Source: Candidatus Siliceabacter maunaloa (GTDB lineage: Bacteria > Actinomycetota > Thermoleophilia > Solirubrobacterales > Solirubrobacteraceae). Taken from it: a DNA stretch of 45,621 nt. The DNA lies in assembly GCA_024330185.1 (NCBI GenBank), contig JANDLV010000033.1, positions 1 to 45,621 of the forward strand, in the 5' to 3' direction. The translations under genes were made by a program, and so were the position numbers. Below are positions 1 through 6,224 of the stretch, piece after piece (the stretch's first letter is position 1; each line of letters starts with the position of its first letter). Under the pieces are notes generated by a model. It had not been told where the DNA came from. It ran no database searches and saw only the letters and a program-made list of their open reading frames with translations.

Positions 1-1193
1 GTAGCGAAACCCGTCTTCGGCAGCCAACCGCTCACGCAGGTGGGTGGCCGCCGCCCGTCTGTGCCATCGTCGCCGGTGTCGCCCTCGCCGGGGCCGGTGG
101 TGGGCTCGTCGTCGCTGGTGTCGCCCTCACCGGGGCCGGTGGTGGGGTCGTCGCCGGTGGGGTCGTCGTCGACGGGCACCTGGACGGCGACCGCGCACTC
201 GGACGCCGTGATGGTGTTGCTGTCCAGGGTGACCGCGCCGTTGCGTGCCAGCAGCCTGCCGTCCACCGTCGCGCCGGTGGTCGCCGTGATCGATGTCAGA
301 GCCAGGATGTTGCCCGCGAAGCTGGAGTTCGTCCCGAGGGTCGCGGAGCTGCCGATCTGCCAGAAGACGTTGCACGCCTGGGCGCCGTTGATGAGGACCA
401 CCCGACTGGCGGAAGCCGTGGTCAACGTCGATGCGGTCTGGAAGATGAAGACGGCATCGGGGTCTCCCTGGGCGTCGAGCGTGAGGGCTCCCGTTATCCC
501 GAAGGTGCCCGAGGCGGAGTCGTAGACGCCGGTCGTCAGGGTCTGCCCGCCGAGCTCCGTCGCCACCCGCTCGGTCGAGATCCGCCCAGCGGCGTCGTCG
601 TACGCCCTGGTCAGGTCGGCTTGGGCCTGCGCCGCGACAGCGTCGCATCTGTGGATCGTCTCGTTGATGACGGTTCCCGGCGGAAATCCGGTCACGTCGC
701 ATGCTGGATCGACCCCCGGAGCGACCCCCACGTCTCCACTGATCACGCTCGGGCCGGTGTTGGTGACAGTGGAGCCACCCAGGACCGCGAAGCTCTCGGC
801 CGTTTCGAGGAGCACCGGGGACTGCGCCGCCTGGGCGCCGATCGCGCGCGGGGCATCGGCGGCGTTGAGCTGCGTGGTACCGGTGTCCGTGGACCCGCTC
901 TCGCTGGGCGTGAGGTTACTGATGCTGGGTTCCGGGTCGGGGCTGGTGGGGTCCGGGTCGGGGCTGGGTTCCGGGTCGGTGGTGGTGGGCTCGGGCTCGG
1001 TGGTGGTGGGCTCGGGCTCGGTGGTGCCCGGCTCGGGCGGCTCGTCGCCGGGGTCGGAGCGACCCTCCTCAGCCTGCTGTGCAGGTGCAACCTCGGTCTG
1101 CTGTGCGGGCGCAGCGATAGGGTGCGAAACGACGACACCCAGTGCGAGCACGAAGGCGATGAGTGCCACCAGCCTCTTCGAGGTTGTGTGCAT
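1..1193 (-). CDS. LPXTG-anchored ice-binding-like (DUF3494) surface protein, C-terminus outside window
   Basis: 397 codons are visible, reading out through the left edge. Residues 1-30 form a signal peptide (basic start, hydrophobic core, ending near APAQQ). Residues 45-95 are a Pro/Glu/Thr linker with repeated TEPEPTT units. Residues 125-335 match the DUF3494 ice-binding-like fold: the opening ESFAVLGGSTVTNTG, then ISGDVGVAPG, DAVFIFQTAS and a closing TLDSNTITASEC are typical. A second acidic linker with two copies of DDxPTTGPGEGDT leads to LPKTG at residues 391-395, the sortase signal; the membrane segment and basic tail should lie outside the window. The family includes antifreeze proteins and adhesins, so ice binding is only one possibility. 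ATG 1193 is preceded by an in-frame stop; GTG two codons upstream is an alternative. No sortase gene is in the window. Confidence 0.88.
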   Translation of the reverse strand, partial: MHTTSKRLVALIAFVLALGVVVSHPIAAPAQQTEVAPAQQAEEGRSDPGDEPPEPGTTEPEPTTTEPEPTTTDPEPSPDPDPTSPDPEPSISNLTPSESGSTDTGTTQLNAADAPRAIGAQAAQSPVLLETAESFAVLGGSTVTNTGPSVISGDVGVAPGVDPACDVTGFPPGTVINETIHRCDAVAAQAQADLTRAYDDAAGRISTERVATELGGQTLTTGVYDSASGTFGITGALTLDAQGDPDAVFIFQTASTLTTASASRVVLINGAQACNVFWQIGSSATLGTNSSFAGNILALTSITATTGATVDGRLLARNGAVTLDSNTITASECAVAVQVPVDDDPTGDDPTTGPGEGDTSDDEPTTGPGEGDTGDDGTDGRRPPTCVSGWLPKTGFA

Positions 1194-4706: not shown

Positions 4707-6224
4707 CTACTTGGTGCCGCGGGGGCGGCGCTCGGGCTCGCCGTCGGGATCGTTGCCCGCGGCTTGGCCCTCGGCGCCCGAAGGCTCGTCGGCGGCCTGC
4801 TCGGCAGCGGCCGGGCCGTCGTCCGACTGCCTGGTCCTGGGCTCGGTGGTACGGCGTACGTTGTCGAGCAGGCCGTTCACGGCCCTCTCGGGTACGTCCA
4901 GCAGGCGCTCGCCGCGGCGTGTGGTCTCCCGCACGGCGCTCTCTGCGCTCCCCTCCTGGCTGCCGTCCGATGAGCCGCCTGAGGAGCCATCGCCGGAGCC
5001 GCCACCGTCGGGGGCCTGGGCGAGCTGCTGCTCAGGCGCCGTCGCGCCGTCGCCGGCGCCGTCGGGCTCCTTCTCGCGCTCGGGCTCCTTCCCCCGCACG
5101 GGCTCCTCCTCCACCACATCCTCGCGCTCGGCCTTCTCGCGCCCCTCGTCGGCCTCCGCCGCGCGCGCGACGGTGTCGGGGGTCGGCGCGCCGGCCACGG
5201 GCGCCACGACCGGGGGCGGGGCCGCGGCGCGCTGGGGGGTCGGGGCGGCCGGGGAGGCGATGCGCTCCTCGACCGCGATCGCGCCGCCGGTCGCCACCGC
5301 TGCCGCCCCCAGCACAGCGGCGACCTTCGTGGTGGTGGCACCGACGGCGAGCGCGCTCGAGCCGGTGGTCACCGCACCGCCGCCGGCGCCCGCGAACAGC
5401 GCGCCCGAGCCTGCCCCGCCGAGGCCCAGCGCCTGGGCCAGGCCGGCCAGCAGCCCGGGGGAGGCGGGGCCCAGCGCGGCGATGCCTGTTGAGGTGCCCT
5501 TCAGGGCCACGCGGTAGGCGCGGCAGCCGTTGCACTCGCGCAGGTGGCGCCGGGCGCGCCCGCTGGAGCGCACGCCACGATCGTGGCTGGAGGCCAGGTC
5601 GGCGCAGATCTCCTGGCAGTCGGCGTCGCGCGCCTCGCCCGTCTCGGCCAGGCCCATGCGCGCGCGCACCAGCAGAGACTTGACCGCTGGGATGGTGACG
5701 CCCAGAGCGGCGCCCAGCTCCGTGTAGGTCATGCCGTCCATCTCGCGCATGAGCAGCGCCGAGCGCTGCTGCTGGGGCAGGGCGCGGATGTCGGTGACCA
5801 GGCGGCGCAGATCCTCGCGCTGCTGGGCGGCCACCATGGGCTCGGGCGCGTCGGAGGGGGAGTCCTCGCTGGCCTCCACGGGTACAGGCGCCGGTCGGCG
5901 CATCTGGTCGATGCAGCGGTTGTGGGCCACCCGGTACAGCCAGGCGCGCAGGGTGATCGGGCGTGCATCGGCGCGTAGAGCGTTGTAGGCGCGCAGGAAG
6001 ACGTCCTGCAGGGCGTCCTCGGCGTCCTGCGGGCTTCCGCCCAGCATCTGGCGGGCGTAGGCGAACAGGCGGGCCTTGTAGCGGTCGTGGATGACCTGGA
6101 AGGCGGCCTCCTGCCCCTGGCGGAAGGCGGCGACGAGTTGCTCGTCCGAGCGCAGGCGCAGCAACGTGGCCGCGACCGTGATCCGGCTGGATCCTGCTGT
6201 GGCTGGTGCTGCCGAGGTCGACAC
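4707..6224 (-). CDS. ECF sigma factor with fused zinc-finger anti-sigma-like region and long acidic tail
   Basis: 505 residues, against roughly 180-200 for a simple ECF sigma factor. Residues 30-105 form region 2 (DAEDALQDVFLRAYNAL, AWLYRVAHNRCIDQM). Residues 135-190 form region 4 (LPQQQRSALLMREMDGMTYTELG, IPAVKSLLVRARMGL; given in parts). Residues 200-235 hold a zinc-binding HxxxCxxC (HLRECNGC) with an earlier DCQEIC, as in anti-sigma ZAS domains. A Gly/Ala-rich hydrophobic stretch at about 255-325 includes a possible membrane segment (VAAVLGAAAVATGGAIAV). The rest is a Glu/Pro/Ser-rich tail. Sigma and its regulator thus appear fused, as described for some actinobacterial ECF groups. The GTG start has GGAAAGGGAA upstream. 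Confidence 0.88.
   Translation of the reverse strand: MSTSAAPATAGSSRITVAATLLRLRSDEQLVAAFRQGQEAAFQVIHDRYKARLFAYARQMLGGSPQDAEDALQDVFLRAYNALRADARPITLRAWLYRVAHNRCIDQMRRPAPVPVEASEDSPSDAPEPMVAAQQREDLRRLVTDIRALPQQQRSALLMREMDGMTYTELGAALGVTIPAVKSLLVRARMGLAETGEARDADCQEICADLASSHDRGVRSSGRARRHLRECNGCRAYRVALKGTSTGIAALGPASPGLLAGLAQALGLGGAGSGALFAGAGGGAVTTGSSALAVGATTTKVAAVLGAAAVATGGAIAVEERIASPAAPTPQRAAAPPPVVAPVAGAPTPDTVARAAEADEGREKAEREDVVEEEPVRGKEPEREKEPDGAGDGATAPEQQLAQAPDGGGSGDGSSGGSSDGSQEGSAESAVRETTRRGERLLDVPERAVNGLLDNVRRTTEPRTRQSDDGPAAAEQAADEPSGAEGQAAGNDPDGEPERRPRGTK

Follow-up and report, generated by a model that had tools for sequence, protein, structure and literature searches.

How is a surface protein fixed to the cell wall when its gene runs off the assembly just behind a sorting motif, and are its relatives fixed in the same way? 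These questions are raised by the first gene of a 45,621-nucleotide stretch of DNA from Candidatus Siliceabacter maunaloa (Actinomycetota, order Solirubrobacterales), referred to here as the window, which is contig C48 from base 1 in a genome of 3.79 Mb and 120 contigs. The gene encodes a protein with a DUF3494 (ice-binding-like) domain and an LPKTG motif near its interrupted end. Attachment of surface proteins to walls of the Gram-positive type is, in textbooks, the work of sortase. The reading that probably holds is that the window protein is a DUF3494 adhesin of the sortase type, and that the tail found in its relatives, typified by Phe-Thr-Gly (FTG) at the very C terminus and encoded beside an L,D-transpeptidase, would be a second anchor.

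The DUF3494 protein of the window

The features of the gene are the following:

1..1193, minus strand: DUF3494 surface-protein gene, a 397-residue open frame without a stop, cut at 1 by the contig end
1098..1193, minus strand: export-signal-like N terminus, codons 1-32 (judged by eye on the translated sequence, with a basic start, a hydrophobic core and an Ala-rich end)
912..1064, minus strand: first low-complexity spacer, acidic and rich in Pro, Thr, Glu and Asp, approximately codons 44-94 (from the translation)
207..785, minus strand: DUF3494 (PF11999) ice-binding-like domain, codons 137-329 (profile search, E=6.8e-68)
57..173, minus strand: second low-complexity spacer, rich in Asp, Gly and Thr, approximately codons 341-379 (from the translation)
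9..23, minus strand: LPKTG motif, codons 391-395 (from the sequence); a membrane segment and tail would fall beyond the contig edge

The start codon is the ATG at 1191-1193, with a GTG upstream at 1199 on the same strand, and the frame remains open to base 1 of the contig, where the assembly truncates the gene. The putatively secreted DUF3494 domain, the two spacers and the LPKTG motif that the preliminary description had reported are all present. The PF11999 match, the only one in the genome, covers the whole profile (positions 1-208) with 228.9 bits against a cut-off of 28.7. Among the 25 distinct sequences matched in the PDB by the domain, the best is 6eio (E=2.7e-55), which carries an antifreeze label and is presumably EfcIBP. 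This match is of domain length and leaves the spacers and LPKTG outside; the fold of the domain is settled by homology. The gene is predicted to encode an exported ice-binding-like adhesin on stalk-like spacers, with ice binding itself predicted by homology. On its own, it adds one new member to a class of surface proteins already known.

The domain could equally well serve adhesion to surfaces or substrates instead of ice binding, and the two possibilities are about evenly balanced. One study describes DUF3494 proteins as binders of ice and of substrates alike, and gives rock, subsurface and rhizosphere among their origins (PMC12337378). Against adhesion, the nearest solved relatives of the window domain are labelled antifreeze or ice-binding.

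A C-terminal tag paired with an L,D-transpeptidase

Most full-length DUF3494 homologues from the window's order carry no sortase signal and end in x-[F/L]-[T/A]-Gly-COOH, with tails such as GFTG, RFTG, SFTG, QFTG, GFAG, GLAG and similar ones placed exactly at the stop codon. In nearly all of these tagged loci, the gene that follows on the same strand codes for a protein that looks secreted and has a YkuD L,D-transpeptidase domain. The order-level set comprised 62 DUF3494 open reading frames (ORFs) from 60 fetched loci. The tag and the adjacent enzyme occur together in 47 of the 62 and are both missing from eight; two further ORFs are tagged near a contig edge (L055, L127) and two are cut open. 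The association of tag and enzyme in the four-fold table is significant (Fisher p=2e-7).

The enzyme occurs without a terminal tag in two of the 62 ORFs, and both cases help the pairing rather than hurt it. In L097 (1784-3938; named copy L211), the DUF3494 domain, a GFAG tail and the L,D-transpeptidase lie in one open frame with no stop between them; this arrangement is either a genuine fusion or the product of misassembly at the stop codon. At L111, the tag lies out of frame, directly in front of the enzyme gene. Judged by these C termini, sortase anchoring of DUF3494 proteins is the exception in the window's own order.

A survey of 85 DUF3494 ORFs at 80 named loci from other genomes of the GTDB species set returned a wider range of ends. 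A sortase signal followed by a membrane segment and a basic tail is carried by 25 of the 85 (LPX[TAS]G in 14, LAX[TAS]G in 11), in agreement with the earlier claim that sortase-anchored DUF3494 proteins exist elsewhere. A membrane-type tail with another motif or none was found in 17, and no such tail in 25; seven ORFs run off a contig or into a gap and one is fused to an L,D-transpeptidase. The short C-terminal tag is present in ten, half of them with the enzyme in view and half without. A named carrier of both tag and enzyme is Patulibacter medicamentivorans strain I11 (L186).

A scan for GFTG at a stop codon in 25 genomes of the order gave 13 matches, nine of them on DUF3494 genes. The other four were rejected as tagged genes, their open frames of only 18-48 residues looking like chance. 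In the window's own genome, GF[TA]G at a stop was likewise discarded as a genome-wide signal, with one match in an unconvincing gene versus one in the reversed control. The partner enzyme was also tried there as a lead to the continuation of the contig, and none of the four YkuD genes is of the tag-linked kind.

The tag on unrelated exported proteins

The first reading, that the tag is confined to DUF3494 proteins, was refuted by searches led by the enzyme. In the order, 78 of 201 genomes matched at E<=1e-25, and in the phylum 67 of 396 at E<=1e-35; 40 places, mostly the best-scoring, were fetched for each. The tail class [FVILYWM][TAS]G had been set before these loci were fetched, ORFs were counted from stop to stop rather than gene-called, and a tagged ORF was sought within 650 or 900 nt upstream, depending on the set. 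Enzyme hits were left out of the counts if less than 700 or 900 nt lay upstream of them, as were DUF3494 loci in the order set; three in-order hits (L338-L340, one of them tagged) were excluded from the outside-order count.

Among the enzyme-selected loci of the order without DUF3494, 19 of 33 have a tagged ORF upstream, mostly ending in GGVTG, GGITG or PVTG; among the other ORFs of 100 residues or more in the same loci, 5 of 716 are tagged. Outside the order, 17 of 39 enzyme hits are tagged (for example, PTFTG, PNFTG, PRFTG, KFAG and GGVTG) versus 7 of 760 ORFs (p=1e-12). One of these 17 is again a DUF3494 protein (L326, GLTG).

Pooling of these sets gave 132 distinct enzymes and, next to them, 87 distinct tagged ORFs. 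All 87 have Gly as their last residue, and the second-last is Thr in 80 and Ala in seven, never Ser, though the class permitted it. The third-last position is held by Phe (59), Val (18), Ile (5), Leu (4) or Tyr (1). None of the 87 shows a membrane-like stretch within its 60 C-terminal residues.

The tagged families are unrelated to each other and include, besides DUF3494, large adhesins with DUF11 repeats, a PF20597 choice-of-anchor A protein and a Ferritin_2 protein. Inspection by eye adds a second ferritin-like tagged protein (L353) and several short Thr/Pro-rich proteins. A shared tail that unrelated exported proteins invariably have at their extreme end looks like a sorting signal.

Two of these cargo classes deserve separate mention. 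The PF20597 protein at L290 (2031-3717) represents a second ice-binding-like adhesive family, with a VTG tail beside the enzyme. At L341 and L342, short proteins with CxxCH (haem-type) motifs, Thr-rich stalks and PRFTG or RPFTG ends were recognized by eye beside the enzyme, and are perhaps wall-bound cytochromes.

The partner enzyme and the reading of the tag

The partner enzyme carries a YkuD domain (PF03734, E=1.6e-21 and 1.2e-16), and matches a YkuD structure in the PDB (E=4.5e-19); the catalytic motif SHGC[IV]R is present in 81 of the 87 copies encoded next to tags. In its AlphaFold model, the N-terminal beta domain is confident and the catalytic half is poor, with block means of 37-65 over most of residues 131-210; nothing about tag recognition is therefore built on the model.

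The third-last residue of the tag follows the enzyme. In trees built with FastTree only, the class of this residue (Phe/Tyr versus Val/Ile/Leu) tracks the enzyme phylogeny, and the nearest tagged enzyme is of the same class in 83 of 87 cases. L340 has a DUF11-like cargo but an F tag, and L258 a ferritin-like cargo and an F tag; in both loci the enzyme belongs to the F group, which separates the enzyme from the cargo as the correlate of the tag residue.

Sortase is not the reader of the tag, since ten of the 12 genomes without a sortase hit, among 44 searched, carry it. These are G025 (in one contig), G002, G026, G036, G039, G047, G048, G159, G371 and G543; in G036, the tag and the enzyme are on separate contigs, each at an end. 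The genomes with LPXTG-type DUF3494 proteins (G000, G069 and G070) all have sortases. Two DUF3494 proteins, L104 and L106, have LPFTG, a membrane segment and a basic tail without a transpeptidase, and their nearest relatives in the domain tree are tagged proteins. This nesting suggests that the two anchors replace each other, so that LPXTG and FTG seem, on the sequences, to be interchangeable on one DUF3494 domain. Such an exchange of tails makes the idea of two anchors directly testable.

The window protein as a probable sortase substrate

The preliminary description had also placed the window protein on the cell wall through LPKTG and had suggested looking for a sortase gene on a leftward extension of the contig. 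Two sortase genes were found in the genome, both above the Pfam cut-off (PF04203). Wall display as such stands in part: the motif, the two sortases and the sortase signals of relatives speak for it, but the second half of the anchor is cut off at the contig edge. Compared with the sortase-displayed LPXTG/LAXTG DUF3494 proteins of Actinomycetota, the window protein shares the domain, a spacer, LPXTG and genomic sortases, has a start that by eye resembles an export signal, and differs in that its end is cut before the membrane segment. It appears, therefore, to be of the sortase type, with a putative linkage to the wall. The terminal 36 bases of the window have no other occurrence in the genome at up to three mismatches, so the contig break is not explained by a second copy.

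At L003 (553-2193, contig C28), one of the two sortases adjoins, in convergent orientation, a secreted-looking protein that ends in a hydrophobic segment and RRRHGTDR. The two form a possible dedicated pair.

A candidate donor mechanism and its alternatives

L,D-transpeptidases are described as attacking an L-centre at its carbonyl, adjacent to a D-residue, and as transferring the acyl group to an amine (PMC12729407, PMC12274547). On this basis, the enzyme would recognize the C-terminal aromatic or aliphatic residue-Thr-Gly and attack the Thr carbonyl, the terminal L-Thr-Gly mimicking the usual donor bond with Gly in place of D-Ala. Gly would be released and the protein passed to the amine of a peptidoglycan stem peptide, in parallel to the action of sortase at the Thr-Gly of LPXTG. 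Actinomycetota would then possess a sortase-free sorting system, in which unrelated exported proteins end in [F/V/I/L]-[T/A]-Gly-COOH, a dedicated adjacent YkuD enzyme uses this tail as acyl donor to link them covalently to peptidoglycan, and the LPKTG protein of the window represents the sortase version of a surface protein that sister lineages attach by the tag; this wider proposal is tentative and is held at slightly less than even confidence. If true, the donor use of the tail would reverse the known chemistry, with the protein as acceptor, and would be convergent on the sortase reaction.

Several observations weigh against the two-anchor reading. On the side of the tag, an upstream tagged ORF is missing for 39 of the 126 distinct enzymes that are not close to a contig edge, and some adjoin unrelated genes, so that some members of the family serve no tag or have their cargo elsewhere. 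Conversely, one of the 62 DUF3494 ORFs of the order (L128) has a tag but no adjacent enzyme. Three DUF3494 proteins of Sphaerisporangium (L197, L201 and L203) have the ends IAVTG or AIVTG but lack a neighbouring L,D-transpeptidase; either the likeness to the tag is due to chance or an enzyme encoded elsewhere serves it. At L266 the tag is of the V kind, yet the nearest enzymes, at long distance, are associated with F tags.

On the side of the window protein, the anchor is cut by the contig end right after LPKTG. In the domain tree, its nearest rows are mixed (L203, L190 with LPNTG, L191 and L049), and no well-supported set holds it. Hits to TIGR01167 in its own genome (14 at E<=10, seven loci read) revealed no LPXTG with a membrane tail; at this threshold the model also matches in all 14 control genomes, which makes it a weak finder of LPXTG proteins. 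Two of the own-genome matches exceed the cut-off, and by eye are solute-binding-type proteins without LPXTG.

An alternative to the donor mechanism is attachment in the manner of the Braun lipoprotein, in which a peptidoglycan tetrapeptide is the donor, a Lys or the N terminus of the protein is the acceptor, and FTG is only a docking signal. All the protein attachments by L,D-transpeptidases considered here from the same two papers use a Lys or N-terminal amine (PMC12729407, PMC12274547). Nevertheless, Lys is missing from the last 30 residues in 40 of the 87 tagged proteins, which leaves no conserved C-terminal Lys acceptor, and an acceptor role would not explain the strict Thr/Ala-Gly end; acceptance through the N terminus would still be compatible with the missing Lys. 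This alternative is considered unlikely.

The enzyme could also be an ordinary wall cross-linker or remodeller that accompanies large surface proteins or creates space for them, with the tail being recognized by some other component such as a protease, secretion factor or chaperone. Cross-linking is the only activity of many L,D-transpeptidases, and the enzymes beside untagged genes mentioned above would fit such a role. However, the enzyme adjoins unrelated tagged cargo of several classes and the tail residue tracks the enzyme tree, so this explanation is given a similarly low weight.

Least probable is that LPKTG is fortuitous or an artefact of the contig end, with the true end of the window protein being different, for example the FAG-type tail usual in the order: the contig does stop 8 bases past the motif, after Phe-Ala and two bases only, the usual tail of the order is xF[TA]G and the last residues of the window are T-G-F-A, but the codon after GFA starts with AC and is not Gly as sequenced (which ruled out TGFA as a FAG tag), the tag always stands directly at the stop in the proteins of the order, LPxTG has a chance expectation of approximately 0.005 in the 64 residues past the domain at the protein's own composition, and relatives commonly show the design of spacer plus LPXTG.

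Comparison with known systems

The two-anchor reading places the tag beside several established ways of sorting exported proteins. The tag system resembles sortase/LPXTG in having Thr-Gly near the C terminus, many exported cargos, an often dedicated adjacent enzyme and a cysteine transpeptidase. In contrast to sortase, the enzyme has an unrelated fold, the tag is at the extreme C terminus with no membrane segment, and the system is present in genomes without a detectable sortase. PEP-CTERM, GlyGly-CTERM and MYXO-CTERM are likewise short C-terminal signals common to unrelated exported proteins. In those systems, the motif is followed by a membrane helix and is processed by membrane proteases, whereas the tag system consists of three residues and a soluble-type L,D-transpeptidase.

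The closest chemistry is found in Gram-negatives, where Lpp, OutB and outer-membrane proteins are joined to peptidoglycan by L,D-transpeptidases via a protein amine (PMC12729407, PMC12274547). The likeness lies in the proposed use of a YkuD enzyme to link exported proteins with the wall; the differences are that the tail of the tag has no amine, with all tags ending in Gly, and that the hosts are Actinomycetota. The pairing can thus be seen as a variant of protein attachment by L,D-transpeptidases, and as a new kind if the donor chemistry holds.

No description of the tag and L,D-transpeptidase pairing was found in the open-access literature searched, and a scan of eight proteins against NCBIfam brought up no model that covers the tail. 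The pairing looks like a mechanism of wall attachment that has yet to be described. If true, it would explain wall anchoring in the ten tagged genomes without a detectable sortase, would provide annotation pipelines with a usable three-residue signal and would add a new role for L,D-transpeptidases outside Gram-negatives.

Other genes of the window

Two other stretches on the minus strand of the window are of separate interest. Beside the DUF3494 gene, at approximately 1438-2227, the coding sequences of a PAS-like domain and a LuxR-type helix-turn-helix occupy separate reading frames, which may reflect a broken regulator gene or a sequencing slip. Further along, a single ORF (4707-6224) shows by eye an extracytoplasmic function (ECF)-type sigma factor, a stretch with Cys pairs resembling a zinc finger, a hydrophobic segment and a long acidic tail, and is possibly a fused sigma/anti-sigma protein.
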